From: Pelagibacterium luteolum
GTDB lineage: Bacteria > Pseudomonadota > Alphaproteobacteria > Rhizobiales > Devosiaceae
DNA length: 35,141 bases
Assembly (NCBI RefSeq): GCF_900100665.1
Contig: NZ_FNCS01000025.1
Coordinates: 1 to 35,141 of the forward strand
Reading direction: 5' to 3'
Shown one piece after another: positions 1,515-22,960 of this stretch (its first letter is position 1; the number at the start of each line of letters is the position of its first letter). Below the pieces are notes generated by a model, which saw only the letters and a list, made by a program, of their open reading frames with translations, had not been told where the DNA came from and did no database searches. The translations under genes were made by a program, and so were the position numbers.

Positions 1515-1631
1515 AACCTATTGAAAGTCCTATAGGCCCTCAAAAGCTTAACTCAAAGCAATAGGTTCCAATGATCTTCGTGCCATAGCGCGGCAGGAGT
1601 GCAAGCCGCGCTTTCGGTGGGCCAGCGCAGC

Positions 1632-1657
1632 GGAACGAAGCGGAGTTCGCAATCATT
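1632..1657 (+). promoter_or_regulatory. Candidate EcfG/RpoE2-type general-stress promoter (variant -10)
   Basis: GGAAC at 1632-1636, then 17 bases, then CATT at 1654-1657. This fits the form GGAAC-N19-TT described for rhizobial RpoE2, though the usual -10 is CGTT. It lies 32 bases before the SDR start codon. The same GGAAC-N17-CATT form recurs before the DUF2231 gene at 10410. Confidence 0.4.
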
Positions 1658-1689
1658 GTGCTGGCCAGATCACAAGGAGCTTGCGACCA

Positions 1690-2535
1690 ATGCCAGAACA
1701 GCCTGCCCAGAAACAGAACCGCCAGCCGGGTTGCGAAGGCGAGATGACGCCGGAACCGGCTTACATGCCCTTTTTTCCAGGCAGCGGGCGGCTCAAGGGC
1801 AAGGTGGCAATTGTGACCGGCGGGGACTCGGGGATAGGCCGTGCGGTCAGCGTTCTGTTCGCGCGCGAAGGGGCCAAGCTCGTCATCGCCTATCTCGATG
1901 AGCATGAGGACGCCGAGACGACGAAGGCCGCGATCGAAAAAGAGGGCAGCGAGGCCCTGCTCGTTCCGGGCGACATCGGCGACCCGGAATTCTGCAAGTC
2001 GATCGCCGCCCAAACGCTCGAAAAATTCGGTCGCATCGATATTCTCGTCAACAACGCTGCCGAACAGTATGTCCGCAAGGATCTGAGCGAGACGGCGCCG
2101 GAGGATGTCGAGCGGGTTTTTCGCACGAATATCTTTGGCTATTTCTTCATGGTGCAGGCCGTCATCGATCACCTCGAAAACGGCAGCCGTATCATCAATA
2201 CGGCGTCCATCGTCGCCTATCGCGGGCACCCGGAACTCGTTGATTATTCCATGACCAAGGGCGCCATCGTGACACTTACGCGCTCACTCGCCAACCGCTT
2301 TGCCGAGCGTGAAATTCTCGTCAATGCAGTAGCGCCGGGCCCAATCTGGACGCCACTGATTCCAGCGAGTTTTCCACCCGATAAGGTCGAGGAGTTCGGC
2401 TCGGATACGCCGCTGGGTCGTCCGGGGCAGCCCAATGAAGTGGCGCCGGCTTACCTGCTTTTGGCCAGCGCCGATGGCAGCTACATCACAGGCCAGACCA
2501 TTCACGTCAATGGCGGCGGGTTGACCAGCAGTTGA
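1690..2535 (+). CDS. SDR-family NAD(P)-dependent oxidoreductase (general stress protein 39 / YghA type)
   Basis: Short-chain dehydrogenase of 281 residues. After an N-terminal tail of about 35 residues, common in the YghA/GSP39 subgroup, it has the cofactor motif TGGDSGIG (43-50), NNAA (121-124), catalytic Ser about 173 and YSMTK with Tyr186 and Lys190, then the PGPIWTPL segment. The substrate is unknown; relatives are annotated as stress-linked aldehyde or sugar-alcohol reductases. The ATG at 1690 is chosen because AAGGAG (1674-1679) sits 10 bases ahead; the TTG at 1681 is too close to it. The topoisomerase gene follows within 8 bases, so the two are probably co-transcribed. A GGAAC-type promoter candidate at 1632 suggests stress induction. 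Confidence 0.9.
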   Translation: MPEQPAQKQNRQPGCEGEMTPEPAYMPFFPGSGRLKGKVAIVTGGDSGIGRAVSVLFAREGAKLVIAYLDEHEDAETTKAAIEKEGSEALLVPGDIGDPEFCKSIAAQTLEKFGRIDILVNNAAEQYVRKDLSETAPEDVERVFRTNIFGYFFMVQAVIDHLENGSRIINTASIVAYRGHPELVDYSMTKGAIVTLTRSLANRFAEREILVNAVAPGPIWTPLIPASFPPDKVEEFGSDTPLGRPGQPNEVAPAYLLLASADGSYITGQTIHVNGGGLTSS

Positions 2536-2543
2536 CGGCCATC

Positions 2544-3584
2544 ATGAACGCAATTGAGCCCGACCTCGCCAATGGCGCGCTGCGCTATGTCAATGACGAC
2601 GAGCCAGGCATCACGCGCCGTCGGCATGGCAAAGGCTTTTCCTATCGCCGCGCCAGCGGTCGCCTGGTCTTGCGCGAGTCTGACGTGGCGCGAATTCGCG
2701 CGCTGGCCATCCCACCCGCATGGACCAATGTCTGGATTTGTGACGACCCCGATGGGCACATTCAGGCGACGGGTCGGGATCTGAAGGGCCGTAAGCAGTA
2801 TCGCTATCACAATCGCTGGCATGAAGAGCGCGGCAGCGCCAAATATGCACTTCTGGCCGAGTTTTCGGCGGCCCTACCCAAACTGCGCAAAGTCATTGAC
2901 GCCGATCTTGGTCTGCGAGGCCTGCCGCGCGACAAGGTGGTCGCTACCGTCGCTTGGCTCCTCGACAACACGATGATCCGCGTCGGCAACGACACCTATG
3001 CTCGGGATAACAAGAGTTTTGGATTGACCACCTTGCGGACGCGCCACCTCGAGGTTTCGGGCTCTCGCTTCAACTTCGCCTTCAAGGGCAAGTCGGGAAA
3101 GGAGTGGGATATCGATTTCACCGACCGTCGCATGGCGCGCATCCTGCGCTCGATCGAAGATTTGCCCGGTCAGCGCCTGTTCCGCTACCGTGACGAAGAG
3201 CGCGGCCTTCACGATGTCGGTTCGCACGACGTCAACGCATATATCCGGGCGGCGATCGGCGAGCGGTTCAGTTCAAAGGATTTTCGGACATGGGGCGGCA
3301 CGATGCGTGCGCTGACGCTGCTATCGAAAACCGACGTCCCCGAAACCAAGACAGCGCGCGCCAAAACGCTCAATGCCGTGATCGACAAGGTCTCGCGCCG
3401 TCTTGGCAATACCCGCGCCGTTTGCCGTGCATGTTACATCCATCCCGCAGTCTTTGAAAACTGGGAGCAGGGGCAATTGGCCGATGAGGTTGCCGCGATC
3501 CGCGCAAAGCGGCCCCGACGCTCTGGGTTGGACGCTGAGGAAACCATTGCCTCAGTGTGGCTGCAGCAAAACGCCGGTGGCTGA
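2544..3584 (+). CDS. DNA topoisomerase IB (poxvirus-type, bacterial)
   Basis: Type IB topoisomerase of about 346 residues that relaxes supercoils by transient 3'-phosphotyrosine cleavage. The N-terminal domain has the family signature GKGFSYRRASG and IPPAWTNVWIC..GHIQATG..KGRKQYRYH. The catalytic domain has NDTYARDNKSFGLTTLR, FAFKGKSGKEW, FRTWGGT and the active-site Tyr at about 298 in CRACYIHPAV. The usual Arg/Lys/Arg/His-type catalytic set appears complete. ATG at 2544 is preferred; a TTG at 2532 would overlap the SDR stop. The gene directly follows the SDR gene and precedes ligD, a DNA end-joining gene, with one small opposite-strand gene between. This enzyme occurs patchily in bacteria; its role in vivo is not established. 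Confidence 0.93.
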   Translation: MNAIEPDLANGALRYVNDDEPGITRRRHGKGFSYRRASGRLVLRESDVARIRALAIPPAWTNVWICDDPDGHIQATGRDLKGRKQYRYHNRWHEERGSAKYALLAEFSAALPKLRKVIDADLGLRGLPRDKVVATVAWLLDNTMIRVGNDTYARDNKSFGLTTLRTRHLEVSGSRFNFAFKGKSGKEWDIDFTDRRMARILRSIEDLPGQRLFRYRDEERGLHDVGSHDVNAYIRAAIGERFSSKDFRTWGGTMRALTLLSKTDVPETKTARAKTLNAVIDKVSRRLGNTRAVCRACYIHPAVFENWEQGQLADEVAAIRAKRPRRSGLDAEETIASVWLQQNAGG

Positions 3585-3597
3585 CGCGTTTTGAGGG

Positions 3598-3783: not shown

Positions 3784-3870
3784 ATTGCGCTCCTTGGCCC
3801 CACCCGGAAACACTAGAGGACACATATATGTTCGCATTAACACATGTTACTCGGCTTACTCGCTGGGACG

Positions 3871-3896
3871 GGAACGGTTGAGAGGAATGGCGCGTT
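3871..3896 (+). promoter_or_regulatory. EcfG/RpoE2-type general-stress promoter upstream of ligD
   Basis: GGAAC at 3871-3875, 17 bases, CGTT at 3893-3896: an exact match to the alphaproteobacterial general-stress sigma consensus. Transcription would start near 3903, leaving a leader of about 40 bases before the ligD ATG. Strand, distance and spacing all fit. Confidence 0.7.
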
Positions 3897-3941
3897 GGGT
3901 GAGCGCGCTTCAGCCGCCAACGCCTGTTCCCGGATTTCACC

Positions 3942-6428
3942 ATGGCCCGTGCCCGCGATCTGCTCGATGAATACCGCGCCAAGCGAGACTTTGCCCAGAC
4001 CAGCGAGCCGGATGGCGGCACGCCGTCAGAAAGCGGCAACATCTTCGTGGTGCAAAAGCACGATGCAACGCGCCTGCACTATGATTTCCGACTCGAATAC
4101 GAGGGCGTGCTCAAGAGCTGGGCCGTAACCCGCGGCCCGAGCACCGATCCCGCCGACAAGCGCCTTGCCGTTCGCACTGAGGATCACCCGCTAGACTATG
4201 CCACGTTTGAGGGCACCATCCCAAAAGGCCAATACGGCGGCGGCACGGTGATGCTCTGGGATTTCGGCACATGGGAGCCGATCGAAGAACCCAAGGCGGG
4301 GTTTAAGTCCGGCAAGCTCAAAGTCCGGCTCGATGGCGAGCGCATGAAGGGCGACTGGGCGTTGATCCGCATGAAAGCAAAACCCGGCGACAAGCGCGAA
4401 AACTGGCTGTTGATCAAGGAGCACGATTCCTTCGCCACCGACGGCAAGGGCGAAGCGATCCTCGATACCGACACCAGCGTTTCGACCGGCCGCGCGATGG
4501 ATGCGATCGCCAGCGGCAAGAAGCCGAAGCGCCTCACGAAATCCACCGCGAAGGCGCTGCCGAAATTCGTCGAACCCCAACTCGCTACGCTCGTCGATGA
4601 CGTGCCGGTCGGCAAGGATTGGCTGTTCGAGATGAAGTATGACGGCTACCGCTGCATCGCCGCGATCTCTGGCGACACCGTCAAGCTCTACACCCGCCAC
4701 GGCCATGACTGGACCGAGAAATTCGCGTCCCTCGTCGCCCCGCTCTCGAAGGTCACCAAGGGATCAGCCCTCATCGACGGCGAAATCTGTGCCTTTAACG
4801 CCGACGGCAAGACCGATTTCTCTACTCTCAAGGCGGCATTATCCGATGGTGGTCCGCTGGTTTTCTTCGCGTTTGATCTCCTCGAGCGCGACGGCAAATC
4901 CCTTCGCAATCTCCCGCTCGTCGACCGCAAGAAGGCGCTCGAAGAGCTAATCGGTACGCGAGAGCGCCACGATGCCATCCAGCTCTCCCCCGATATCGAA
5001 GGGAAGGGGCAGGAGGTGTTCGACGCCATCTGCAAGGCCGGGCTCGAGGGCGTCATCGCCAAGAAGGCATCGGCCGAATACTTGTCCGGCCGCGCGAAAA
5101 CATGGCTCAAGATCAAATGCACGCTGCGCCAGGAATTCATCATCGTAGGCTGGTCGCCGTCCGAAAAACGCAAGGGCGTCTTCGCCTCCCTGCTGCTGGC
5201 CACCGAGGAAGACGGAAAGCTCGTCTATCGCGGACGCGTCGGCACCGGATTTTCGGACCAGACGCGTGAGGATCTGCAAAAATTGCTCGACGCCGCCGCC
5301 CGCAAATCCGCTCCGCTCACCGGCGTCCCGTCCCAGATGTCGCGCAATGCGCGCTGGGTCACGCCACGCCATCTTGCCGAAATCGCCTATACCGAGCAAA
5401 CGCCCGATGGCGTCTTGCGTCACCCGTCATTTCTCGGCCTGCGCGAAGACAAACCGGCCAAAGGCGTCGCCTTGGAAAAGCCGACCAAGGTGACCAGCCC
5501 GCGCACCAAGAGATCGACACCGGGCGCAAAGCTGACCGACGACGCAGGCATCGCTGCTGCGGAGAAGGCCGGTATCAAGCTCACGAGCCCCGACAAGCTT
5601 CTCTATCCGGGCCAGGGCGTCACCAAAGCAAAGCTGGCCGCCTACTACGCTGCGGTCGTCGATGCGATGCTTCCCTACATCACCGACCACCCCTTGAGCC
5701 TCGTTCGCTGCCCCGGGGGTCGCGCCAAGCAGTGCTTTTTCCAAAAGCACGATACCGGCGGCTTTTCCCAAGGCATGCACTCGATCGCCATCACGGAAAA
5801 AGACGGCACCTCGGACGATTATTTCACCCTCAACGGGCTGGATGGACTCTTGGCAGGCGTGCAGATGGGTGTTCTTGAATTCCACATCTGGGGCTCGCGC
5901 CGTGACGACATCGAAAAGCCTGACCGGCTTGTCTTCGACATCGACCCCGATGAAGGCCTCGATTTCGCCGATGTCAAATCCGCCGCCCTCGACATCCGCG
6001 ACCGACTTGCAGACATCGGCCTCAAGACCTTCCCCATGGCCACGGGCGGAAAGGGCATCCATGTCATCGCGCCTCTCACCCGCAGTGCCGAATGGCCCGA
6101 GGTCAAAGCTTTCGCGTCGGGCTTTGCCAAACATCTGGCCGAAACACAGCCCGATCGCTACACCGCGACGCTGTCGAAAAAGGCGCGAAAGGGCAAGCTG
6201 TTCGTCGACTATCTGCGCAACGAGCGGGGCTCGACGGCCATCGCGCCCTATTCAACCCGTGCGCGTGAAGGGGCGCCCTGCGCCGTGCCGCTCTCTTGGG
6301 ATGAACTGGACGATCTCAAGCAAGCCAACGGCTTTTCGCTCGATGCTGCTGCCGAACGCGCTACGGGGCCGGACCCTTGGCAGGGCTATGGCAAGGTGCG
6401 CCAGTCCCTACCCAAAACCTTTAAATGA
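3942..6428 (+). CDS. ligD: ATP-dependent DNA ligase D (PE-Lig-Pol), bacterial NHEJ
   Basis: Multifunctional end-joining ligase of 828 residues with all three domains in the Pseudomonas/rhizobial order. The N-terminal 3'-phosphoesterase has HDATRLHYDFRLE (His40, His46, Asp48) and His82 in EDHPLDY. The ligase domain has the adenylation Lys232 in EMKYDGYR, then DGEICAF, EGVIAKK and WLKIKC. The C-terminal archaeo-eukaryotic primase-type polymerase (about 545-828) has DKLLYPG, the metal-binding pair Asp666/Asp668 in FDIDPDEG and LFVDYLRN. It heals, fills and seals double-strand breaks with Ku. No ku gene is in the window. The ATG has only a weak ribosome-binding site. Its TGA directly abuts the stop of the opposing Crp-family gene. 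A GGAAC-N17-CGTT promoter lies just upstream. Confidence 0.96.
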   Translation: MARARDLLDEYRAKRDFAQTSEPDGGTPSESGNIFVVQKHDATRLHYDFRLEYEGVLKSWAVTRGPSTDPADKRLAVRTEDHPLDYATFEGTIPKGQYGGGTVMLWDFGTWEPIEEPKAGFKSGKLKVRLDGERMKGDWALIRMKAKPGDKRENWLLIKEHDSFATDGKGEAILDTDTSVSTGRAMDAIASGKKPKRLTKSTAKALPKFVEPQLATLVDDVPVGKDWLFEMKYDGYRCIAAISGDTVKLYTRHGHDWTEKFASLVAPLSKVTKGSALIDGEICAFNADGKTDFSTLKAALSDGGPLVFFAFDLLERDGKSLRNLPLVDRKKALEELIGTRERHDAIQLSPDIEGKGQEVFDAICKAGLEGVIAKKASAEYLSGRAKTWLKIKCTLRQEFIIVGWSPSEKRKGVFASLLLATEEDGKLVYRGRVGTGFSDQTREDLQKLLDAAARKSAPLTGVPSQMSRNARWVTPRHLAEIAYTEQTPDGVLRHPSFLGLREDKPAKGVALEKPTKVTSPRTKRSTPGAKLTDDAGIAAAEKAGIKLTSPDKLLYPGQGVTKAKLAAYYAAVVDAMLPYITDHPLSLVRCPGGRAKQCFFQKHDTGGFSQGMHSIAITEKDGTSDDYFTLNGLDGLLAGVQMGVLEFHIWGSRRDDIEKPDRLVFDIDPDEGLDFADVKSAALDIRDRLADIGLKTFPMATGGKGIHVIAPLTRSAEWPEVKAFASGFAKHLAETQPDRYTATLSKKARKGKLFVDYLRNERGSTAIAPYSTRAREGAPCAVPLSWDELDDLKQANGFSLDAAAERATGPDPWQGYGKVRQSLPKTFK

Positions 6429-7178
6429 TCAAGCCGGAACGGCGCCGATCAGCGGCATTTCACGCAGGTGCAGATAATCGGGAGAAAACATCGCCTGAGC
6501 CGCCAGCGCATTGAAGTCGAAGATTTCGACGGTCCCGGCCTGAAAGGCAATCTGGCCAGATTTGCGCAACTCCTGGAGCGTACGGTTCACATGGACCGTG
6601 GACAGGCCCAGCGCATCCGCCAATTCGCTCTGGGTCAGGGGCAGGGGGAAGCGGGCACCCTCGGTTCGGCCCACGGCAGCGAGACGCAGGAAGGTTTCGC
6701 ACAGAAGATGCGCCATCCGCTCGATGGCCGATCGCTTGCCGATCGACACCAGCCACTCTCGGGAAATCGATTCTTCAACGAGCGTAGTGCTCCAGAGCGC
6801 CGTCGTAATGCGCGGGTGGTCTTCGAGCAGTCGGAAAAGGCTCGCATTGGGAATGGCCGCCAGTGTAGCAACCGACAGGGTCGCCACGGCCGGCTGCATG
6901 CCACCCAGAACGAATTGGCGCAGATCGATGACGTCCCCTGGCATCAAAAGCGACAGGATTTGCCGCCGCCCGTCCGCGAGGTCGCGATACCGGCAGGCAT
7001 AGCCTTCGATGATCATGTGCACGTGGTTTTCGGACAGCTTGCCGGCCAGCGCCAAATTGCGTCCGGGCATGCTGCGCATCTGACAGGGCAGGCCGGCAAG
7101 CCCGTTGCGCTCGGACTCATCGAGCGCCAGATGGCTCTGCAATCGTGCAATCAACAGATCATTGGGCATGGTCTTCAT
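6429..7178 (-). CDS. Crp/Fnr-family transcriptional regulator
   Basis: 249-residue regulator with an N-terminal cyclic-nucleotide-binding-type beta barrel (about 30-130; the ILSLLMPGDVIDL segment is the usual core) and a C-terminal winged helix-turn-helix (about 160-225; LTQSELADALGLSTVHVNRTLQELRKSG). It has no N-terminal cysteine cluster, so an oxygen-sensing Fe-S type Fnr is unlikely. The ligand and targets are unknown. The gene is the second in a minus-strand pair, 9 bases after the flavodoxin-fold gene, so it shares that transcript. The start at 7178 has no clear ribosome-binding site; 7169 is an alternative. Its stop and the ligD stop together form TGATCA with no space between the genes. 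Confidence 0.9.
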   Translation of the reverse strand: MKTMPNDLLIARLQSHLALDESERNGLAGLPCQMRSMPGRNLALAGKLSENHVHMIIEGYACRYRDLADGRRQILSLLMPGDVIDLRQFVLGGMQPAVATLSVATLAAIPNASLFRLLEDHPRITTALWSTTLVEESISREWLVSIGKRSAIERMAHLLCETFLRLAAVGRTEGARFPLPLTQSELADALGLSTVHVNRTLQELRKSGQIAFQAGTVEIFDFNALAAQAMFSPDYLHLREMPLIGAVPA

Positions 7179-7187: not shown

Positions 7188-7808
7188 TCAGTCCAGGCTG
7201 GGATAGGGGTCTTGGGCCAACAACCGCGCCAGATGGGCGCTCGTGCGCGCGACCATCGTAATGGTCCCGCTCACCGTTTCCGGCACGGCTTTCAAATCTT
7301 TAAAGTCGGTCGACCCCATGGCCTCGCCGACCCAGTAGGCCACTGCGTTGGGCGCAAGCGAAAAGCCGACATCATTGAGGGCCTGGAACAGCTCGGCAGA
7401 TACGTGGTGCGCGCCATCCTCATTGCCCACAACAGCCACCGCGGCCACACGACCGTAGGAGGGCATGCGGCCCTCGTCGTCCTTTTCGCTGATGAAGGCG
7501 TCCAGGCGTTCCATCGCCCGCTTGATGACGCTCGAGGGCTGGCCCATCCAGACAGGGGTCCCTGCAATCAAGATGTCGGCGGCAAGAATTTTCTCTCGAA
7601 TAGCCGGCCACTCATCGCCTTTACCTTCGTCCGATGTCACCCCGGGCAGGATATTGTGGTCGGCAAGCCGAATGGTCTCGCCTTCGATCCCCAGGGATTT
7701 CAGTTCGCTTAAGAGCAATTGGATCATCCGGTCGGTGGACGAACTCTCCTTGCCCTTGGACGGTTTGAGCGTACCATTGAGCGCGAGAGCGGTGAGGGTC
7801 TTTGGCAT
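7188..7808 (-). CDS. Flavodoxin-fold NAD(P)H-dependent FMN reductase-like protein
   Basis: 206-residue flavoprotein of the NADPH-dependent FMN reductase/flavodoxin-like family. It starts LTALALNGTLKPSKGKESSSTDRM, the phosphate-binding loop region, continues with AADILIAGTPVWMGQPSSVIKRAMERLDAF, the typical flavin-contact segment, and GRVAAVAVVGNEDGAHH. Relatives act as quinone, azo or flavin reductases; the substrate here is unknown. ATG at 7808 is chosen because AAGGA lies 7 bases upstream; the in-frame codon at 7838 has no such site. The Crp-family regulator gene follows on the same strand after 9 bases. A GGAAC-N17-CGTT promoter about 100 bases upstream suggests general-stress control. Confidence 0.85.
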   Translation of the reverse strand: MPKTLTALALNGTLKPSKGKESSSTDRMIQLLLSELKSLGIEGETIRLADHNILPGVTSDEGKGDEWPAIREKILAADILIAGTPVWMGQPSSVIKRAMERLDAFISEKDDEGRMPSYGRVAAVAVVGNEDGAHHVSAELFQALNDVGFSLAPNAVAYWVGEAMGSTDFKDLKAVPETVSGTITMVARTSAHLARLLAQDPYPSLD

Positions 7809-7909: not shown

Positions 7910-7935
7910 AACGAACGGGGCACGAACCGTGTTCC
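7910..7935 (-). promoter_or_regulatory. EcfG/RpoE2-type general-stress promoter for the reductase-crp pair
   Basis: On the minus strand GGAAC (7935-7931), 17 bases, CGTT (7913-7910). This exactly matches the stress sigma consensus and points at the reductase start at 7808 with a leader of about 95 bases. Confidence 0.6.
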
Positions 7936-7972: not shown

Positions 7973-7987
7973 GTTTTGCAACAAAAC
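7973..7987. promoter_or_regulatory. Perfect palindrome, candidate operator
   Basis: GTTTTG-CAA-CAAAAC, six-base arms around three bases. It lies in the 240-base divergent region between the reductase gene and the receiver operon, 62 bases before the receiver start codon. No protein is assigned; the neighbouring Crp-family regulator is a possibility, but the motif is not the classical TGTGA type. Confidence 0.4.
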
Positions 7988-8048
7988 ACCCCTCCCATTG
8001 GTTCTGATAGCGCTGGACGTCGTGCCGGCGATCAAAGCGGAGGACAGG

Positions 8049-8447
8049 ATGGGTACGACGGGTCCCGGTATTTCCGGGAAAGCCATCATGGTTGTTGAAG
8101 ACGAATATTTGATCGCACTTACCCTCGAGATGGCGCTGTCCGAACAGGGTGCACATGTCATGGGGCCATACTCCAGCGTGGACGCAGCGCTGGAAGCATT
8201 GTCCGCGACGCCCTGGCCCGATGCGGCGGTTCTCGACATCAATGTAAGGGAGCGTCTTGTGTTTCCAGTCGCCGAAAAACTGACCGAACTCGACATACCT
8301 TTCGTCTTTGCCACCGGCTATGACAACTGGACGGTGCCAGCCGTTTTCAGCACGATCCGTCGCTTTGAAAAGCCGACCGATACGGACCGTCTGATCGTTG
8401 AACTGTCCAACATGCTGGCAGCACGTGACACCTCAGGTGCGGCATGA
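8049..8447 (+). CDS. Single-domain response regulator, FATGUY-like
   Basis: Stand-alone receiver of 132 residues with no output domain. It has the acidic pocket VVEDE (Glu17-Asp18), phosphoacceptor Asp63 in AVLDINV, and IPFVFATGYD (84-92), where Thr89 is the switch residue, plus the conserved Lys108 in FEKP. The PF-x-FATGY sequence is the mark of FATGUY receivers, which include SdrG-type regulators and the PhyR receiver in the alphaproteobacterial general stress response. The ATG at 8049 is backed by GGAGGA about six bases upstream; a frame extension to 7929 has none. The stop overlaps the next receiver gene as ATGA, and a kinase gene follows. Confidence 0.9.
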   Translation: MGTTGPGISGKAIMVVEDEYLIALTLEMALSEQGAHVMGPYSSVDAALEALSATPWPDAAVLDINVRERLVFPVAEKLTELDIPFVFATGYDNWTVPAVFSTIRRFEKPTDTDRLIVELSNMLAARDTSGAA

Positions 8448-8977
8448 GCGCCCTCGTCGATGAAAAACAGGCCGACGATATCGCGGGCAAATGTGTGCTC
8501 GTCGTTGAAGATGACTACGTCCTTGCCCGTGAGGTTTGTAATGATCTCAAGAGCCACGGCGCGCTTGTCCTTGGACCTGCGCCTACCGTTCATTATGCCC
8601 ATTTGATTATCGGCCGTCGTCGCCTCGATGGAGCGATCCTCGATATCAAGTTGTTCGGCGAGGAGGTCTACGAGCTCGTTGATGTCCTCAAGGCACGGGG
8701 CGTGCCCATTGTCTTTGCCACGGCGTATCAACCCGATCAGATCGATGAACGCTATCGCAGTATCGATGTTTTGCCCAAACCCCTCGATTTTGACCATCTC
8801 CGGCGAAAAGTCGCCGATTTCCGCCCCACCCCTATCGCGGCCCCGCTGCGGCAAGACGCGGTTGAGCGACACTATCCAATACCCGATCCTCACCGGCCGA
8901 CTGTCGGGGCCACTGCTATGGGCGATCGTGAACGCTGGGCGCGTCTTTTGACCGGCGCCATGCGCCGGCAGAGCTGA
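8444..8977 (+). CDS. Second single-domain response regulator with FATAY motif
   Basis: 177-residue receiver with a C-terminal tail of about 45 residues, rich in Pro, Arg and charged residues, that matches no output domain I know. It has VVEDDY (21-25 region), phosphoacceptor Asp67 in AILDIKL, VPIVFATAYQ (88-96) and VLPKPLD. It is a FATGUY-like variant with Ala in place of Gly. It overlaps the preceding receiver by four bases (ATGA), so translation is probably coupled. Having two closely related receivers before one kinase suggests a phosphate shuttle or sink arrangement. The kinase gene follows after 16 bases. Confidence 0.9.
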   Translation: MSALVDEKQADDIAGKCVLVVEDDYVLAREVCNDLKSHGALVLGPAPTVHYAHLIIGRRRLDGAILDIKLFGEEVYELVDVLKARGVPIVFATAYQPDQIDERYRSIDVLPKPLDFDHLRRKVADFRPTPIAAPLRQDAVERHYPIPDPHRPTVGATAMGDRERWARLLTGAMRRQS

Positions 8978-8993: not shown

Positions 8994-10400
8994 ATGACGG
9001 AAGGTCGCACGATCGATCAGCCCGGGCGCCCGCCGTTCACGGACGACGACGAACGCTTTCGCCTTATCGTCGAGAATGCCCGCGACTACGCGATCTTCAC
9101 CACCGATGCGGATGGCATCATCGACAGTTGGCCGCCTGGCGCATCATCGGTGTTCGGGTGGGACGCGCCCGACATCCTGGGTAAACCCGCGTCTCTTATC
9201 TTCGTCCCCGAGGACCGTGAGAGCGGGGTTCCCGAACAGGAATTCAACACCGCTCTGGAGCGCGGTTATGCCCCCGATGTTCGCTGGCATCAGCACAAAT
9301 CAGGCTCGCGCGTATTCATTGAGGGCAGTGTCTGGCCGCTGACCGAGGCGGATGGTTCATTGAGAGGCTTTCTCAAGATCGGCCAGGACATGACCCTGCG
9401 CCGCCAGCACGAGATCGCCCTCATGGAAAGCGAGGAGCGATTTCGCCTTCTTGCAACGACAGTTCCCCATCTGGTTTTCCGTTCGACGACCGAGGGGCGC
9501 CGCACCTGGGCCAGCCCGCAATGGGCAACCTATACCGGTATGGGCAATGCGGAATCCGAAGGGTATGGCTGGCTGGACGCCATCCATCCCGATGACCGCG
9601 ACGTCGCGCTCAAGAAGTGGGACGAAGCCGCCTATGACGGCAACACCTATTACGGCGAGCATCGCATTCGGCGGCAGACCGATGGCATGTATCGTTGGCA
9701 CCAGACGCGCGCCGTCCCCATCGGCCCTTCCGCCGGCGGAACGCAGGAGTGGGTCGGCTCAGCTGCAGACATCCACGACGTCCGCATGCTGCAAGAGCAG
9801 CAGGGACTTCTTGTCGGAGAGCTTCAGCACCGGACACGAAATCTGCTTGCGGTCGTCCGCTCCATAGCGTCGCAGACCGTTGAAGCGGTCGGGTCGCTCC
9901 AGGACTTCCAGCGGGCCTTCGACAGTCGCCTGGGTGCGCTATCGCGCGTTCAGGGACTTCTCTCGCGCGCTGACAATCAGGGCATAACCGTCGAACGTCT
10001 CCTCAGTATCGAGCTTGGTGCGGTGGCGTCGAGCTGGGATCAGATCCACACGGAAGGGCCGCGGGTCCTTGTGGCAGACGGTAGTCTGCAGACCCTGATG
10101 CTCGTGATCCACGAGTTAAGTACCAACGCCGTGCGACATGGCGGCCTGGCCACCAACGAGGGCAGGGTCGATATTGTCTGGTCCATGCGCGGAAACGCCG
10201 CCGACGGCGGATTGCTGATCATCGAATGGCGCGAGCGTTTTCCGCCTCGCGCGATCGATCCGGACCGTCCCCGCGGTTTCGGTCGCCAGTTGATCGAGGA
10301 AGCGATACCCTACCAGCTCGGCGCGGCGACCAAGTTCGTTCTTGGTGAAGATTCGCTTCAGTGCGTCCTCAGCCTGCCGCTCGATCCGCAGGATGCCTGA
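8994..10400 (+). CDS. PAS-PAS HWE-family sensor histidine kinase (soluble)
   Basis: 468-residue cytoplasmic kinase with no membrane segment. It has PAS domain 1 (about 18-135), PAS domain 2 (about 145-265) and an HWE kinase core. His279 in GELQHRTRNLL is the phosphoacceptor, HELSTNAVRHG (373-383) is the N box with the family His, and IEWRE (410-414) provides the WxE. No photoactive Cys motif (NCRFLQ-type) is seen in either PAS, so blue-light sensing is not suggested. The ATG at 8994 follows GGGAGG by 7 bases. It lies in an operon with two FATGUY-like receivers. HWE kinases often feed PhyR or SdrG-type receivers in the general stress response, which fits the context; the direct partner is inferred. 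Confidence 0.92.
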   Translation: MTEGRTIDQPGRPPFTDDDERFRLIVENARDYAIFTTDADGIIDSWPPGASSVFGWDAPDILGKPASLIFVPEDRESGVPEQEFNTALERGYAPDVRWHQHKSGSRVFIEGSVWPLTEADGSLRGFLKIGQDMTLRRQHEIALMESEERFRLLATTVPHLVFRSTTEGRRTWASPQWATYTGMGNAESEGYGWLDAIHPDDRDVALKKWDEAAYDGNTYYGEHRIRRQTDGMYRWHQTRAVPIGPSAGGTQEWVGSAADIHDVRMLQEQQGLLVGELQHRTRNLLAVVRSIASQTVEAVGSLQDFQRAFDSRLGALSRVQGLLSRADNQGITVERLLSIELGAVASSWDQIHTEGPRVLVADGSLQTLMLVIHELSTNAVRHGGLATNEGRVDIVWSMRGNAADGGLLIIEWRERFPPRAIDPDRPRGFGRQLIEEAIPYQLGAATKFVLGEDSLQCVLSLPLDPQDA

Positions 10401-10409: not shown

Positions 10410-10435
10410 GGAACCTCGACCCTGTCGCAGTCATT
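10410..10435 (+). promoter_or_regulatory. Candidate general-stress promoter (variant -10) for the DUF2231 gene
   Basis: GGAAC (10410-10414), 17 bases, CATT (10432-10435), giving GGAAC-N19-TT. It lies 17 bases before the ATG at 10453 and has the same variant form as the element upstream of the SDR gene. Confidence 0.45.
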
Positions 10436-10452: not shown

Positions 10453-10965
10453 ATGGGGGCGTTAGTGGCTGAAGAAGACAATCCAGACAATCCGGTCATC
10501 GCTGAAGTTCTCAAGGACGACGTGCAATCGGCCGTTGCCGTTGCAGGGCACCCAATTCACGCCATGATGGTGCATTTCCCCATCGCTCTCGTCTTTGCGA
10601 CGCTGGGCGCGGATATCTTCTATTGGTGGACCGCCGATCCCTTCTGGGTGCGGGCAGGTCTTTGGTCGGCAGGCTTTGCTTTCGTCTTCGGCGTCGCCGC
10701 CGGCATTGCCGGGACGGCAGAATTGGTTCTCGTAAAAGGCATTCGCGGTCGGATCGGAAGCTGGACGCACGCCCTTGCCGCCATGACACTTATCGCCATT
10801 GCGGGCACCAATTGGGGGCTGCGACTGGCCGAGCCGGACGCTGTCCTGCCCCTGGGACTATCGCTCTCGATCCTCGCGGGGATATTTACCGGCCTTGCCG
10901 GATGGCATGGTGGCAAGCTGGTCTTTGATCACGGCGTCGGGATGATCGTCGATCCAAATGAATAG
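10453..10965 (+). CDS. DUF2231-family membrane protein
   Basis: 170-residue membrane protein with the DUF2231 opening GHPIHAMMVHFPIAL (about 33-47) and four predicted membrane helices: about 40-58, 66-92, 104-122 and 130-150. The conserved His pair in GHPIH..VHFP suggests metal or heme contact, but the family function is not known. About 30 acidic residues precede the first helix. The start ATG lacks a good ribosome-binding site; the GTG four codons on is an alternative. The gene follows the HWE kinase on the same strand but has its own promoter candidate. Its TAG abuts the stop of the opposing oxidase operon (TAGCTA). Confidence 0.8.
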   Translation: MGALVAEEDNPDNPVIAEVLKDDVQSAVAVAGHPIHAMMVHFPIALVFATLGADIFYWWTADPFWVRAGLWSAGFAFVFGVAAGIAGTAELVLVKGIRGRIGSWTHALAAMTLIAIAGTNWGLRLAEPDAVLPLGLSLSILAGIFTGLAGWHGGKLVFDHGVGMIVDPNE

Positions 10966-11310: not shown

Positions 11311-13832
11311 CACCGCACTCCTTCCAGCATCCCGATCAGCATCGGCATCGCCCCAATCAGAAGCGCTCCAATCACGCCCGTAACAGCAGTATAATCGTGC
11401 CACAAAACCGACAGCCGCAGCGGCAGCGAACGGCGTGCGGAGACGTATCCGCCACGGGCCTTCATCAAGCCATTGAGCGCAAAGCAAAATCCGCCTGCCG
11501 CATGCAGCCAGCCATAGCCCAGAATGGCCGCGACGGTCGCGATATGGGCATGCGCGGTCGGGTCGGGCAGGGCGCTAAGGGCAAGTGAAATCAGCACGAT
11601 TGTCAAACCGTCGATTATGACAATGGCAAACAGTGCCGGCGCGAAATTGCCCCCCTGCCGATTTATCCCCGTAGCCCAGCGTGCGACTATACTCGACACG
11701 ATCATCGCAACAGGCGCGAGCCAGAGCCAAAAGCCGGGATCGGCAATTTCAGCAGGCGGCCAGGCGGGAGCCACGAGCCACAGGTAAAGCGCCCCGAAAA
11801 TAAGAGACGCAAACAGCGTCCCATTCGCCGAAAGCGCAAAAACCATCGCCCACCATGGCGTAGAGCCATCCACCTCGACATCCGGCGGCACGAATTCACC
11901 ATTGCCGACCGGCACCGGTCCGCTGTCGGTCGTAAGGCCCGTCGTCCTCGACCAGAGGAAGAAACTACTAACAGTTGCAATGGCGAAGACGATCGCGCCA
12001 ATGTACAACTTGAAGAGCGTGCATAGTACTACGCTCCCCGTAAGCCCCGCCGAGAGCAGCGGCAGATATGTCGCATTGGGAAGCACGACCAGATGTTCGA
12101 GCCGGCCCGTCGTCATATCGACAGCGAGGGTTTCCATGCGATTGTTGCGCGCAAATCCGAGGTATCCCTTGCCCGCCGCCAGTTCCGCCCCAAGCCGATC
12201 AGGATCGATGCCATCAGCTCGCTCTTCGATTTTCGGCAAGGACGCGAAGGCGTAGGACGTTGGTCGTGTGGGCATGGCCCAGTCCAGCGTCGACGCCTTC
12301 CAGATATTGCGCCGGAAATGCCGGCCGAACCTGAACTGCAGGATCAGATCGACAGCGAACAGCGCAAATCCCATGGTCAGGATAAACCCGCCAACGCTGG
12401 AGAGAAGGTTGAGCCAATCCCAGCCGAAATTGGAGGGGTAAGTATAGATTCTCCTCGGCATTCCCATGAGACCGGTCAGGTGCATCAGGAAGAATGTCAG
12501 GTTGAAACCGATAAAGATCAGCCAGAAGGCGGGTACCGAAATTCGATGTACCGATTGCCGGCCGGTGATGTGTGGCAGCCAGAAGTAAACCGCTGCCAAC
12601 ATCGGGAAAACAAACCCACCCACAAGGACATAGTGGAGGTGGGCCACAACGAAATAGCTGTCATGGGCCTGCTGGTTAAAGGGCACCATCGCGAGCATGA
12701 CACCGGTCAAACCCCCGATCACGAACACGACGAAAAAGCCGAAAATATAGAGCATCGGTATGTCGAAGCGTGGTCGTCCATGGGCCAGCGTAGCCAGCCA
12801 GGCAAAGATTTGCACCGCTGTCGGTATGGCAACGATGGCGCTGGCAGCGGAAAAGAATGCGAGAGCCAGATGGGGGATGCCGACGGTGAACATGTGGTGC
12901 ACCCACAGACCGAACGACAGGAACGCCAACGCCACGATGGCGGCTATAATGGCATGATATCCAACGATCTTTCGCTGCGCGAAGACGGGGATCATCGTCG
13001 ATATCGCGCCCGCCGCCGGCAGGAAGATGATATAGACCTCGGGATGGCCGAACAGCCAGAACAGATGCTGCCAGAGCAATGGATCACCGCCGCGCTCGGG
13101 ATCAAAGAACGGTAAGCCGAAGGCCCGTTCCAGTTCGAGCAGAATTGAACCGAGGATGAGGGGCGGGAACCCGAACACCATCATCAGAGCGGTCACCAGC
13201 ATGTACCACGCAAAGAGCGGCATGCGGTTGAGCGACATGCCCGGCGCGCGCAGTTTCAAAATGGTGACTGTGATCTCGATCGCCGCAGACACTGCTGAAA
13301 TTTCGACGAATGTGACGCCTAGCAGCCAGATATCGGCATTGATTCCAGGTGTGTAGGGCTGGGAGGACAGCGGGGTGTACATGAACCACCCGCTGTCTGG
13401 AGCGACGCCGAACAGCATCGATACGACAATGATCGTACCGCCGAACAAATAACACCAATAGCCATAGGCCGTCAGGCGCGGAAACGCGAGGTCGCGCGCG
13501 CCAAGCATCTTGGGCAAAAGATAGATCGCCAGCCCTTCCAGCATCGGAATGGCAAAGAGAAACATCATCACAGTGCCATGCATGGAGAAGAGCTGATTGT
13601 AGAGCTCTGGCCCAACGAACGCTGCATTAGGCGTCGCAAGCTGTGCCCGGATCAGCATCGCCAGCAAGCCGCCGATGGCGAAGAACACGAAAGCGGTAAT
13701 CATGAACCGCTTTCCGATCACCGTGTGGTTTACCGCCGCCAGCCGCTGCAATCCGGGACCCGTGCCCCATATGCGCTCAAGCTGCTTATGGAGACGGATC
13801 GGGCTCGGTGTTTCAGGCGTCAGGTCGGTCAT
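11310..13832 (-). CDS. Cytochrome c oxidase, fused subunits I and III
   Basis: 840-residue heme-copper oxidase core. Residues 1 to about 560 are subunit I, with MHGTVMMF (low-spin heme His), WLFGHPEVYIIFLP (CuB His, the His-Tyr pair and the proton-channel Glu), WVHHMF (CuB) and HDSYFVVAHLHYVL (heme a3 and heme a His). From about 600 on is a subunit III region with a paired-helix lead-in and five further helices. Relatives belong to the caa3-like SoxM/A-type oxidases with I/III fusion. The start at 13832 overlaps the subunit II stop (ATGA); the frame extension to 13931 runs back into subunit II and is rejected. It pumps protons while reducing O2 with electrons from subunit II. Confidence 0.94.
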   Translation of the reverse strand: MTDLTPETPSPIRLHKQLERIWGTGPGLQRLAAVNHTVIGKRFMITAFVFFAIGGLLAMLIRAQLATPNAAFVGPELYNQLFSMHGTVMMFLFAIPMLEGLAIYLLPKMLGARDLAFPRLTAYGYWCYLFGGTIIVVSMLFGVAPDSGWFMYTPLSSQPYTPGINADIWLLGVTFVEISAVSAAIEITVTILKLRAPGMSLNRMPLFAWYMLVTALMMVFGFPPLILGSILLELERAFGLPFFDPERGGDPLLWQHLFWLFGHPEVYIIFLPAAGAISTMIPVFAQRKIVGYHAIIAAIVALAFLSFGLWVHHMFTVGIPHLALAFFSAASAIVAIPTAVQIFAWLATLAHGRPRFDIPMLYIFGFFVVFVIGGLTGVMLAMVPFNQQAHDSYFVVAHLHYVLVGGFVFPMLAAVYFWLPHITGRQSVHRISVPAFWLIFIGFNLTFFLMHLTGLMGMPRRIYTYPSNFGWDWLNLLSSVGGFILTMGFALFAVDLILQFRFGRHFRRNIWKASTLDWAMPTRPTSYAFASLPKIEERADGIDPDRLGAELAAGKGYLGFARNNRMETLAVDMTTGRLEHLVVLPNATYLPLLSAGLTGSVVLCTLFKLYIGAIVFAIATVSSFFLWSRTTGLTTDSGPVPVGNGEFVPPDVEVDGSTPWWAMVFALSANGTLFASLIFGALYLWLVAPAWPPAEIADPGFWLWLAPVAMIVSSIVARWATGINRQGGNFAPALFAIVIIDGLTIVLISLALSALPDPTAHAHIATVAAILGYGWLHAAGGFCFALNGLMKARGGYVSARRSLPLRLSVLWHDYTAVTGVIGALLIGAMPMLIGMLEGVR

Positions 13833-14512
13833 TGTGCGGCCTCCCTTACGGCATTGGCATATAATTCGGGCTCGTGGGCCTCGACCTGGAACAGCATGCG
13901 CGTATGGCCATTGCCACAAAATTCCGCACACACGCCCTGATAGGAACCCGGGCGATCGGCTTGAATACGCACGACATTTTCATGCCCCGGAATCGCGTCG
14001 ATCTTGCCTGCAAGTCGCGGCACCCAGAACGAATGCACGACATCGCCGCTCGTGACGAGAATATCCACCGGCTGGCCCGCCGGGATGTGGAGAACACGCG
14101 TTGGACCGACATCGCCAAGTTCGGGATAGCTGAACTGCCATTGCCACATCACCCCATGCGCGCTGATGCGCGGCGGGGCGTCTTCGATGGGGTGCGCCAG
14201 CAGGCGCTCGCCGGTATAGAGCGCAAACCCCACGAGCACCGTCAGCAGCGCCCCAGGCACCGCTAGGCCGCCATAGATGATCCATTTTCCCGGCCGCACT
14301 GTTCGCGCCAAGCCGGGACGCAGCCAGATGGTCGTGAGTACAGCCATCATCAAAATGAAGATAACCACCGACGACCAGAACATCACCCACCACAGCGTCG
14401 AGATCGCTGTAGCGGACGGGCCGGCGGGATCGAGGGTTGATAGTGGTGCAGCGCATGCGGAAAGCGTTAGAAGCGCTGCGACCGTTGAGAAAATGCGGGC
14501 TATTGATTTCAC
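13829..14512 (-). CDS. Cytochrome c oxidase subunit II (lipoprotein, CuA)
   Basis: 227 residues from a GTG start whose codon overlaps the previous stop (GTGA). The signal ends in a lipobox, LSAC, so the mature N-terminus is probably lipidated. Two membrane helices follow (about 40-62 and 80-100). The periplasmic cupredoxin domain carries the CuA ligands: VVHSFWVP (His) and CAEFCGNGHTRM (two Cys, Glu carbonyl, His, Met). The aromatic path WQWQFSYP is present. No cytochrome c domain is fused at the C-terminus, so electrons must come from a separate cytochrome c. A frame extension to 14569 lies inside the upstream gene and is rejected. Confidence 0.93.
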   Translation of the reverse strand: MKSIARIFSTVAALLTLSACAAPLSTLDPAGPSATAISTLWWVMFWSSVVIFILMMAVLTTIWLRPGLARTVRPGKWIIYGGLAVPGALLTVLVGFALYTGERLLAHPIEDAPPRISAHGVMWQWQFSYPELGDVGPTRVLHIPAGQPVDILVTSGDVVHSFWVPRLAGKIDAIPGHENVVRIQADRPGSYQGVCAEFCGNGHTRMLFQVEAHEPELYANAVREAAQ

Positions 14513-15018
14513 TGAGCCCACCCCAAGACCGGCATCACCAGCTCCGATAGTTTGCCTGGCGCCACCCAATCGGGGACCATCGACTCGAAATCGATGTCCG
14601 GCTTGCCCGATACGATCGTGAGAATGGCCGACACGACGATCAGCGTTCCGCCGGTGACCACTACGTACCGCAGCCGAGAATACTTGGTCTTCTCATCGAA
14701 AAGCTTCAGGATCAGCAAGCCCGAAAGCAGGTGAATAATCACCATGAGCCCGACGAGTGCGAGCTTGAGCGCAAACCATGGCTCGAACGTCGATCGCAGG
14801 AAAACGAGGGCTGTCCCACTGCCAACAGCGATGAACGCGGCAGGCGACAGGATCACGACGTAAAAGAATCGGACCATGGCGTGAAGCCGATGAACAGCGT
14901 CGGGCCGTCCCGCATCCTTGCGCTGCGCAAACAGAAACGGAAGACAGACCAGGCCAGCAGCCCATACGGCGATGCCAGCAATGTGGACGAATTTTAGAAG
15001 CGTCGTCAGTGCGTCCAT
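14509..15018 (-). CDS. HemJ/CopD-like four-helix membrane protein
   Basis: 169-residue membrane protein with four helices. The first opens LLKFVHIAGIAVWAAGL with a conserved-looking His12; the others are about 50-75, 80-105 and 120-140. The pattern (His in helix 1, FYVVILSPA, WFALKLALVGLMVIIH) resembles HemJ protoporphyrinogen oxidase and CopD families, and the exact family is uncertain. In an oxidase operon a heme- or copper-handling role in assembly is a reasonable inference. The start at 15018 overlaps the end of ctaG by 13 bases; the 15108 extension lies in ctaG. Its end overlaps the subunit II start. Confidence 0.75.
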   Translation of the reverse strand: MDALTTLLKFVHIAGIAVWAAGLVCLPFLFAQRKDAGRPDAVHRLHAMVRFFYVVILSPAAFIAVGSGTALVFLRSTFEPWFALKLALVGLMVIIHLLSGLLILKLFDEKTKYSRLRYVVVTGGTLIVVSAILTIVSGKPDIDFESMVPDWVAPGKLSELVMPVLGWAQ

Positions 15019-15761
15019 CCAGCCCTCTGCGCTTCGGGCTGTCCTTTGACCAGGCGCATCAGGAGGCCAAGGCCGGCGGCCAGATAGGGCAGCATCGCCG
15101 GCACCCACATCAGAAGGCCCGCAAGCTGCTGGTCTGACAGCGCCGAAAGGCCAAACGCTGCAGTGGTCTGGAAATGTATGGAATAGACGGCGAACGGGCT
15201 GAAGACGAGGAGCGCGCCAAGCAGACCCATCTGCGCTACAAACGCCACCAAGGCGATCAGAGCCGCCCCGTTGCGGGTCAGAGGCGAAAGCACCTCACGC
15301 CAGAACAGCCAGGCACTCCCTAGCAGCGAGATTTGCATGAGCCAGTAGGGCGCAGCGTCCATCACAGCCCACTCGTAGGCCGAAGGCGCATGCCATATCC
15401 AGACCAGCAGCGCATTGAGCAAGGTCACCGCCGCCAGGGGAAGCAATGGGCCGGATCGCCAAGGCAGGGCGATCGCGAGCAACGGCGCGATCACCGCGAT
15501 GAGGATAACATGGTGAAACACACGCGCCGAAAACAGCGACACGGTAAGGGCGCAGAGCGGTGAGAAGAACGCAAGGACGATAAGCCCGATCGCGCCCATC
15601 AGGGCCGCGCGACCGACGCTATCGCGCCGCCCTACCATCAGCCACGCATAGACGAGGGCGATGATCGCTACGAAGGCGAAGGGGTCAAAATTCCATTGGA
15701 AAATTAAAGTGGCGGGGACCGGAGCCGGTCCACAATACGCAATCGAATCGTCAAACAACAT
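15006..15761 (-). CDS. ctaG: Cytochrome c oxidase assembly factor CtaG, caa3 type
   Basis: 251-residue membrane protein of the Caa3_CtaG family (distinct from the Cox11-type CtaG), with about seven helices. Recognisable parts are FHHVILIAVIAPLLAIALP, LLVWIWHAPSAYEWAV and LSDQQLAGLLMWVPAM, the His-rich helix faces typical of this copper-insertion factor. It is first in the five-gene oxidase operon and is needed in relatives for CuB or CuA assembly. Upstream (15762-15879) are a perfect palindrome and a GGAAC-type promoter candidate. ATG at 15761 has no strong ribosome-binding site. Confidence 0.88.
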   Translation of the reverse strand: MLFDDSIAYCGPAPVPATLIFQWNFDPFAFVAIIALVYAWLMVGRRDSVGRAALMGAIGLIVLAFFSPLCALTVSLFSARVFHHVILIAVIAPLLAIALPWRSGPLLPLAAVTLLNALLVWIWHAPSAYEWAVMDAAPYWLMQISLLGSAWLFWREVLSPLTRNGAALIALVAFVAQMGLLGALLVFSPFAVYSIHFQTTAAFGLSALSDQQLAGLLMWVPAMLPYLAAGLGLLMRLVKGQPEAQRAGWTH

Positions 15762-15813: not shown

Positions 15814-15838
15814 AACTAGACGGCGTGGAAAATGTTCC
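15814..15838 (-). promoter_or_regulatory. Candidate general-stress promoter of the oxidase operon
   Basis: Minus strand: GGAAC (15838-15834), 16 bases, AGTT (15817-15814), which fits GGAAC-N18-TT. It is about 50 bases ahead of the ctaG start. The -10 has A instead of C at its first base. Confidence 0.45.
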
Positions 15839-18942: not shown

Positions 18943-18954
18943 CGCGTTAAATCC

Positions 18955-19825: not shown

Positions 19826-19834
19826 GGAGACATC

Positions 19835-21596: not shown

Positions 21597-22672
21597 TGGC
21601 CCTGTCGCCCTTCGATCATCCGTTCCTATCCGGGCTGTTCGCCGACCCTGAGATCGCCGCGCTGATGAGCGCCGATGCCGATCTCGGGGCCATGCTGCGC
21701 TTTGAAGTGGCCCTCGCCGAAGCTCAGGTCGATCAAGGCGTGATACCCGAAACGGCCGCATCCCATATCGCGCGCCTAATCGATTTCAAGCCCGACCTCG
21801 CCGCGTTGCGCGCTGGGGTGGGGCAGGACGGCGTCGTCGTGGCGCAACTCGTAAAGCAGTTGCGCGCGCAGTTGCCCGCTGCAGTGGCAGAGTTCGTCCA
21901 TTTTGGCGCAACCAGCCAGGATGTGATCGACACGAGCCTTGTCATGCGCCTTGCCTCGGTTTGCGATATTTTCGACGACAGGCTGGCGGGTCTTGTCGAG
22001 GACATCGATCAATTGGTCGCCCGATTTGGCACAAACCGTCTCATGGCGCGGACACGCATGCAGGATGCGCTCGAGATTTCCGTTGCCGATCGGCTGATCG
22101 ACTGGCGAGCCCCGCTTGTGCGGCATCGCGCGCGGCTGAAGGAATTGAGATCACGGCTGCTGGTCGTGCAGTTCGGCGGTGCGGTTGGAACGCTGGATAA
22201 GTTCAACGAGACCGGGCCGGCGATCCGCACAGCGCTTGCCGAAAGATTGGGACTCGGCAACGGAGCGAAATCCTGGCACTCGGCGCGTGATGGGATTGTC
22301 GAATTCGGCAACTGGCTTGCGCTCGTTGCCGGCAGTCTGGGCAAAATCGGGCAGGATGCCGCTCTGATGGCGCAGAACGCTATGGGAGATATTTCGCTGG
22401 CTAGCGGCGGCGGATCGTCGGCCATGCCCCACAAGTCCAATCCTGTAGCCGCTGAAGCGCTCGTCAGCCTCGCACGTTATGCGGCGGGGTCCAGTGGAAC
22501 ATTGGCGCAGGCGATGGTGCACGAGCAAGAGCGCTCGGGGGCGGCATGGACGCTGGAATGGCTGGTCCTCCCGCAATTGATCCTGGCAACTGGATCCAGC
22601 ACTTTGCACGCCGGTCGGCTTCTGACCTCTATCAATTCCATGGGTCGTTCAGAAACGGATGCGTCACCTTGA
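21596..22672 (+). CDS. pcaB: 3-carboxy-cis,cis-muconate cycloisomerase
   Basis: 358-residue member of the fumarase/aspartase superfamily converting 3-carboxymuconate to 4-carboxymuconolactone. It has the HFGATSQDVIDT helix start and the superfamily signature GGGSSAMPHKSNPV. It ends about 90 residues before gamma-proteobacterial PcaB, which have a C-terminal extension; the shorter form is usual in rhizobia, so I do not call it truncated. The gene shares one base with pcaG and is last in the operon, 16 bases from the opposing Nif11-like gene. No hairpin terminator is seen. Confidence 0.93.
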   Translation: MALSPFDHPFLSGLFADPEIAALMSADADLGAMLRFEVALAEAQVDQGVIPETAASHIARLIDFKPDLAALRAGVGQDGVVVAQLVKQLRAQLPAAVAEFVHFGATSQDVIDTSLVMRLASVCDIFDDRLAGLVEDIDQLVARFGTNRLMARTRMQDALEISVADRLIDWRAPLVRHRARLKELRSRLLVVQFGGAVGTLDKFNETGPAIRTALAERLGLGNGAKSWHSARDGIVEFGNWLALVAGSLGKIGQDAALMAQNAMGDISLASGGGSSAMPHKSNPVAAEALVSLARYAAGSSGTLAQAMVHEQERSGAAWTLEWLVLPQLILATGSSTLHAGRLLTSINSMGRSETDASP

Positions 22673-22688
22673 GGCTCCAATCCTCTCG

Positions 22689-22892
22689 CTAGACCTGCGC
22701 GGGAGGGGGCCCCGAGCGGGTGCGTCGAATGTCCTCGAATGACAGATCGAACCCGATCTCACGCGCGAATTGGGCGATGGCTTCAATTGCTTCGGCACTG
22801 TGCTTGTCGTGCGTGGCCAGCAGAAAGCGGCGCGTCAGCTGGGTGTCCTGTCCCACCGTAGCGAAAAATTGTGCGGCGGTGGTCTTTGGCAT
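22689..22892 (-). CDS. Nif11-like small protein
   Basis: 67 residues. The N-terminal 50 fit the Nif11 pattern: TTAAQFFATVGQDTQLTRRFLL, then a helix (EAIEAIAQFAREIGFDLSFEDI). A short Arg/Pro-rich tail follows. Nif11 domains serve as leader peptides of RiPP precursors in some bacteria, but here there is no Gly-Gly cleavage site, no Cys/Ser/Thr-rich core and no modifying enzyme nearby, so a natural-product role is unlikely. The start at 22892 has GGAG seven bases upstream; the frame extension to 22985 would cover a clean stress-type promoter, which argues against it. The function is unknown. Confidence 0.7.
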   Translation of the reverse strand: MPKTTAAQFFATVGQDTQLTRRFLLATHDKHSAEAIEAIAQFAREIGFDLSFEDIRRTRSGPPPAQV

Positions 22893-22935
22893 TTGCGGGC
22901 TCCATGAATACGCGGGCTGACTTTGCCGGTGGTCC

Positions 22936-22960
22936 AACGGTCGGAGTACTCCCTTGTTCC
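22936..22960 (-). promoter_or_regulatory. EcfG/RpoE2-type general-stress promoter of the Nif11-like gene
   Basis: Minus strand: GGAAC (22960-22956), 16 bases, CGTT (22939-22936). Exact consensus with an allowed spacer. Transcription would start near 22929, about 37 bases before the ATG at 22892. Confidence 0.65.

Follow-up and report, generated by a model that had tools for sequence, protein, structure and literature searches.

Does a run of general-stress promoter motifs around a small signalling operon mark a place where an alphaproteobacterium keeps part of its general stress response (GSR) beside the genes that this response controls, or does it reflect chance matches and inherited gene order? 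The question is raised by a 35,141-nt contig of Pelagibacterium luteolum (Devosiaceae, Hyphomicrobiales; genome G000, 4.3 Mb), analysed at its full length and hereafter called the window, in which candidate promoters of the type read by the sigma factor EcfG lie on both sides of an operon encoding two single-domain receivers (RR1 and RR2) and a histidine kinase (HWE; Table 1). Our results suggest a satellite GSR locus of a Pelagibacterium-type alphaproteobacterium, composed of EcfG targets with an embedded kinase operon of the PhyR pathway, a reading to which we assign a probability of roughly 0.75. The sites, their placement and recurrence, the gene identities and the synteny come directly from sequence. 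The response is the one known from alphaproteobacteria, encountered here as a new instance with an unusual gene arrangement.

An earlier sequence-only reading of this DNA had listed six promoter-like sites on the right strand and at the right distance from a gene, three of them (3871, 7935 and 22960) with an exact CGTT. All six are present as GGAAC-N16/17-NNTT, with the −10 box 17-101 bases before the start codon, and the three CGTT boxes are correct. These six sites and one GCAAC site combine a GGAAC or GCAAC −35 box, an N16-17 spacer and an NGTT or CATT −10 box with a start within ~100 bases on the same strand. The motif by itself is not convincingly enriched: the strict form occurs three times anywhere in the window (shuffled mean 0.88; three or more in 5 of 100 shuffles), GGAAC-N16-19-GTT five times (mean 3.19; equalled in 25 of 100) and the loose GGAAC-N17-20-TT 15 times (mean 11.5; equalled in 22 of 100). 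Across the genome, GGAAC-N16-17-CGTT is found 85 times and the reversed pattern 100 times. Taken alone, these raw statistics would argue for rejection, a verdict overturned by placement and conservation.

For placement, we counted sites outside genes that stand 5-150 bases 5′ of a called start on the same strand. The window holds six such placed sites per 33 called starts. The background consisted of forty 20-kb stretches (800 kb) of G000, hand-spaced on six large contigs and hence non-random, with the core GSR locus excluded; it yielded 14 placed sites per 761 starts when the −10 box was NGTT or CATT (Poisson 4.4e-5 for the window) and 21 per 761 with any NNTT (3.9e-4), and the maximum in any stretch was 2. 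After correction for the ~122 windows of 35-kb size that fit into 4.3 Mb, P is ~0.005 and ~0.05, respectively. With each of eight scrambled −35 boxes, the window had either no placed site or one, and the sample, in the NGTT/CATT class, had 0-3 versus 14 for the true box. This statistic is supportive only, because the −10 classes were fixed after the six sites had been inspected; the starts come from a simple custom gene caller, which failed to call RR1 and RR2 and placed a gene opposite the HWE upstream region. In the comparison with shuffled sequence proposed in the sequence-only reading, raw window counts are marginal or negative; the density of placed sites relative to the genome sample is raised.

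Recurrence in relatives provides the stronger argument. Searching 136 genomes of the family with RR2 gave matches in 54 (paralogues counted), and we read the regions around 20 of these matches plus five more stretches. The close set comprises seven genomes of the same genus (G119, G120, G121, G122, G126, G127 and G129), with G119/G120 and G126/G127 as near-duplicate pairs; more distant comparisons covered G123, the P. limicola-like G124, G125, G130, the Arsenicitalea-like G001 and Devosia-group genomes. For four targets, namely SDR-topoisomerase IB (SDR, short-chain dehydrogenase/reductase), reductase-crp, DUF2231 and the oxidase operon, the site is kept in 23 of 24 upstream regions across the seven close relatives (17/18 with G120 and G126 omitted), and each of the eight scrambled −35 boxes scored 0/24 in these regions. 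Specifically, GGAAC-N16-CATT lies upstream of SDR in all six close relatives having the gene, and further out a site is found in G123, G124 and G001; the reductase has its site in 6/6, ctaG of the oxidase operon in 6/6 (with a −10 box of CATT versus AGTT in P. luteolum) and DUF2231 in 5/6. Control genes (topoisomerase IB alone, RR2, HWE, the COX1 gene, COX2, UPF0093, pobA and LysR) had sites in 0 of 41 cases in the relatives. In this set, the COX2 match in G126 is distant (34%), and few genomes gave a readable pobA or LysR; one of the eight scrambled boxes reached 2/41. In alignments, the −35 and −10 boxes stand out as conserved islands, most clearly 5′ of SDR and the reductase, and four of the six sites recur although the DNA around them has diverged. 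Identity of boxes versus spacers (−35, 225/225; −10, 170/180; elsewhere, 39-54%) is biased because the sites were selected by pattern, and was given no weight.

The sites of ligD and at 22960 do not recur in this way. In all seven close relatives ku stands before ligD, and it has its own site ~100 bases 5′ of the Ku-domain match, GGAAC-N16/17-AATT in six genomes and, for G122, GGAAC-N16-CGTT. In P. luteolum, two convergent ku genes lie on contig C8 (~34.5-36.3 kb; L096 and L099), apart from ligD, each preceded by a GGAAC-CGTT site; with ku and ligD separated and each bearing a site of its own, the genome offers a small natural experiment. We regard the 22960 site as a possible promoter that lies beyond the conserved cluster. 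Since it is not conserved and the gene-start scan gave no placed site in the pca region (15.9-22.7 kb), we place the cluster proper at ~1.6-15.8 kb. The wider span first proposed, 1515-22960, is upheld over this part, and the pca region and the 22960 site fall outside.

Where the contig permits, the close set largely keeps the order SDR, topoisomerase IB, ku, ligD / crp, reductase / RR1, RR2, HWE, DUF2231 / oxidase operon; G122 is without the reductase, the topoisomerase IB match is partial in G126 and G127, and the G119 and G120 stretches gave no match to topoisomerase IB. The receiver and kinase genes are inside the cluster in 7/7 close relatives (the G126 copy at a contig end); the proposal that the sites surround this operon, with signalling and target genes together, is largely supported at the level of sequence conservation. 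The order is rearranged in G124, G130 and G001, where SDR, crp and RR2 still lie within a single 20-kb stretch, which in two of these genomes also includes ligD, and beyond the genus RR2 adjoins a Crp-type gene in most stretches read. Around RR1-RR2-HWE of G125, EcfG-type sites precede flanking SodC-like and DUF892-like genes, and those near RR2 in Devosia-group genomes precede inositol-phosphate-synthase-like or trehalose-pathway-like genes (names by eye in both cases). As a separate observation, GGAACAAAGCTTGG...CGTT near the RR2-crp pair is common to four Devosia-group loci (L049 12693, L050 13902, L054 16759 and L055 7004), in three of which the downstream open reading frame (ORF) resembles inositol-3-phosphate synthase by eye.

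Is the signalling operon itself a target? In the divergent intergenic gap at 7.81-8.05 kb, GCAAC-N17-GGTT (7978-8003, +) leaves 45 bases to the RR1 ATG at 8049 and is probably the EcfG-type promoter of the operon. GCAAC is aligned upstream of RR1 in seven of eight genomes, which suggests that the signalling genes may themselves belong to the targets; in the eighth, G122, the site is GGAAC-N16-CGTT. At the −10 position, P. luteolum and G129 have GGTT, and inspection by eye gave CTTT in G119, G120, G121 and G127 and CATT in the more distant G125. GGAAC-N17-TGTT, 121-125 bases before RR1 in G121, G126 and G127, does not recur in the other genomes and was given no weight. The G122 element (L038 4324-4350) is near-palindromic; either strand reads GGAAC-N16-CGTT, and the element could act divergently on crp and RR1.

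In PDB sequence searches, RR1 and RR2 share their top two matches, the response regulator 2lpm and SdrG (5ieb). RR1 carries the FATGY form of the FAT GUY motif of SdrG-type receivers and RR2 carries FATAY, deviating at the G; the phosphoacceptor Asp is retained in the RR2 alignment. HWE joins two PAS regions to an HWE domain (Pfam HWE_HK, 72.2 bits against a cut-off of 22.8), is similar to LOV-HWE kinases and has the HWE/HisKA2 domain content of a Pak-type kinase according to Pfam. We predict that RR1-RR2-HWE most likely feeds into the PhyR pathway or adjusts it, as one of its arms.

The core of that pathway lies elsewhere. Contig C42 of P. luteolum encodes PhyR and an adjacent extracytoplasmic function (ECF) sigma factor (both by Pfam), the gene pair that marks a PhyR-NepR-EcfG response, together with a NepR-like frame recognized by eye; GGAAC-CGTT sites are found at the phyR/nepR junction and near an adjoining HWE kinase. 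The window cluster thus resembles the phyR-nepR-ecfG core in its promoter motif and neighbouring HWE kinase gene, but is on a separate contig, and the search for the PhyR sigma domain gave no match in the window; with the core on another contig, the cluster is a satellite. In four relatives a PhyR match lies 0.31-0.42 Mb from RR2. Elsewhere in G000 (contig C37, 492646-493816), two GGAAC-CGTT matches are found on the opposite strand within ~1 kb of another RR2-like receiver match.

How the parts may work together follows the switch of known alphaproteobacteria, for which we draw on the available text of PMC6599016, PMC7083833, PMC5898713, PMC12148442, PMC6180224, PMC3616915 and PMC3188799. Stress would lead to phosphorylated PhyR, which would capture NepR and free EcfG. 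RNA polymerase with EcfG would then read GGAAC-N16/17-NNTT before SDR-topoisomerase IB, ligD, reductase-crp, DUF2231 and the oxidase operon, and probably also the GCAAC-type promoter of RR1-RR2-HWE. Cytosolic PAS sensors and SdrG-like receivers may pass phosphate to the PhyR branch, which would put input and output genes in one cluster, with feedback. The more ambitious idea of a stress hub kept by selection, in which the EcfG-target RR-RR-HWE operon feeds PhyR as a self-amplifying input and repair, redox and respiratory genes, including an alternative terminal oxidase, form the outputs, is a tentative one to which we give less than even odds.

The EcfG regulons of Sphingomonas melonis Fr1 and Sphingopyxis granuli TFA, in the available text of their reports, are alike in a GGAAC-N-GTT motif with a variable −10 box and in several targets. 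Topoisomerase IB, Ku and a Crp-type regulator are targets in S. melonis, where the ku site ends in AATT and the topoisomerase IB site in CATT (PMC6599016); ku-ligD belongs to the regulon of S. granuli, in which GCAAC is among the two commonest GSR −35 boxes (PMC7083833). Unlike in these two species, the targets of P. luteolum neighbour a kinase operon, and the oxidase operon and DUF2231 bear conserved sites; ‘cytochrome’ and ‘DUF2231’ are not found in the main text of PMC6599016, the supplements being outside the search. PakB-PkrB of S. melonis is likewise an HWE-type kinase with a single-domain receiver, and PkrB is regulated under a stress mix (PMC6599016). SdrG of S. melonis, which RR1 and RR2 resemble in sequence, belongs to the PhyR relay as a FAT GUY receiver; the SdrG and Pak genes are scattered there, according to the available text of PMC5898713, whereas P. 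luteolum has two receivers per kinase amid the targets. In Rhizobium etli, coxPONM is induced in stationary phase and rsh-dependent (PMC3188799, in its available text).

Several observations weigh against the satellite-locus reading. Whole-window counts are near chance, and across the genome the reversed pattern is at least as common as the motif. Among ten ligD genes examined, one, that of P. luteolum itself, has the site, and the 22960 site, a perfect motif match, is missing in both relatives having the small gene. Upstream scans found no site before SDR in G125 and G130 or before DUF2231 in G122. The −10 box of RR1 varies (GGTT, CTTT), and one relative carries a different site there. The tie of HWE to PhyR is a prediction, as is the reading of the sites by EcfG. 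Finally, the genome has at least one further ECF sigma gene (contig C14) whose product is similar to the PhyR/EcfG sigma domain and could share promoters.

How far do these points favour other explanations? In a GC-rich window, a short gapped motif may match by chance, which would account for loose counts that equal the shuffled expectation and for a reversed pattern as common across the genome, but the placement excess and the 23/24 recurrence, against none for scrambled boxes, contradict this explanation for four of the six sites (22960 is not among them) and make it very improbable. If the promoters are real, another ECF sigma factor might read them, alone or together with EcfG: the C14 gene would be a candidate, and in S. 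meliloti 27 of 40 RpoE6-raised genes overlap the RpoE2 regulon (PMC6180224, in its available text). We consider this unlikely, and the sites probably EcfG's, because the same motif flanks phyR and nepR-ecfG of P. luteolum and the target list agrees with EcfG regulons as published (PMC6599016 and PMC7083833, in their available text). It is also conceivable, although we find it doubtful, that the promoters are true EcfG targets while the receiver/kinase operon forms a two-component module of its own and the clustering is inherited gene order. The seven closest genomes belong to one genus, so that shared order may reflect descent; the kinase operon has only a GCAAC-type site with a variable −10 box, and phosphotransfer from the kinase to PhyR is a prediction. 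The match of the receivers to SdrG, the 20-kb proximity that survives rearrangement in G124, G130 and G001, and the EcfG-type sites before other genes flanking the operon in G125 speak instead for the satellite GSR locus.

On this reading, the locus supplies, for Devosiaceae, general-stress promoters that are backed by conservation, and two predictions that are easily testable, that the oxidase operon is under the general stress sigma factor and that this factor feeds back on a kinase operon amid its targets. In the open-licence literature we found no paper joining Pelagibacterium with ‘general stress response’ or Devosia with EcfG, and no title on oxidases and EcfG reporting an EcfG-dependent oxidase, most subscription papers being outside this scope.

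Table 1 Genes and candidate promoter sites of the P. luteolum window
Feature	Coordinates	Strand	Remarks
EcfG-type site GGAAC-N17-CATT, 5′ of SDR-topoisomerase IB	1632..1657	+	32-base gap from −10 box to start codon
Short-chain dehydrogenase/reductase (SDR)	1690..2535	+	Pfam adh_short_C2
DNA topoisomerase IB, directly 3′ of SDR, codirectional	2544..3584	+	Pfam Topoisom_I, Top1B_N_bact
EcfG-type site GGAAC-N17-CGTT, 5′ of ligD	3871..3896	+	45-base gap to start codon
ligD, non-homologous end-joining DNA ligase D	3942..6428	+	NCBIfam TIGR02776
Crp/Fnr-family regulator (crp)	6429..7178	-	Pfam HTH_Crp_2, cNMP_binding
NADPH-dependent FMN reductase-like protein, upstream of crp	7188..7808	-	Pfam FMN_red
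EcfG-type site GGAAC-N17-CGTT, 5′ of reductase-crp	7910..7935	-	101-base gap to start codon
Probable EcfG-type site GCAAC-N17-GGTT, 5′ of receiver/kinase operon	7978..8003	+	absent from the list of the sequence-only reading
RR1, single-domain receiver, FATGY motif	8049..8447	+	Pfam Response_reg below cut-off; PDB SdrG 5ieb E 1.4e-11
RR2, single-domain receiver, FATAY, C-terminal tail	8444..8977	+	Pfam Response_reg slightly below cut-off; PDB SdrG 5ieb E 1.3e-10
PAS-PAS-HWE histidine kinase (HWE)	8994..10400	+	Pfam HWE_HK, PAS; PDB 6ph4 LOV-HWE kinase E 1.6e-29
EcfG-type site GGAAC-N17-CATT, 5′ of DUF2231	10410..10435	+	17-base gap to start codon
DUF2231 membrane protein	10453..10965	+	Pfam DUF2231
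Oxidase operon: CtaG, UPF0093-like, COX2, COX1-containing 873-aa protein, small downstream ORF	10966..15761	-	Pfam
EcfG-type site GGAAC-N16-AGTT, 5′ of oxidase operon	15814..15838	-	52-base gap to start codon
GGAAC-N16-CGTT, 5′ of small Nif11-like gene	22936..22960	-	43-base gap, ATG at 22892
Small protein, weak Nif11 match	22689..22892	-	Pfam Nif11 E 0.017, 15.8 bits versus cut-off 23.8

At the left contig end (1-1514, minus strand), a dCache-HisKA2 sensor kinase is broken: its two ORFs (996-1514 and 307-1086) overlap in different frames, the second stops inside the HisKA_2 domain, and an HTH_Tnp_1 transposase fragment adjoins them. Just 5′ of this kinase, GGAAC with CTTT-type ends (1543-1569, minus strand) is possibly a weak stress-type site. 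An apparently fuller homologue of the kinase, divergent from SDR, is found in G129 (L040).

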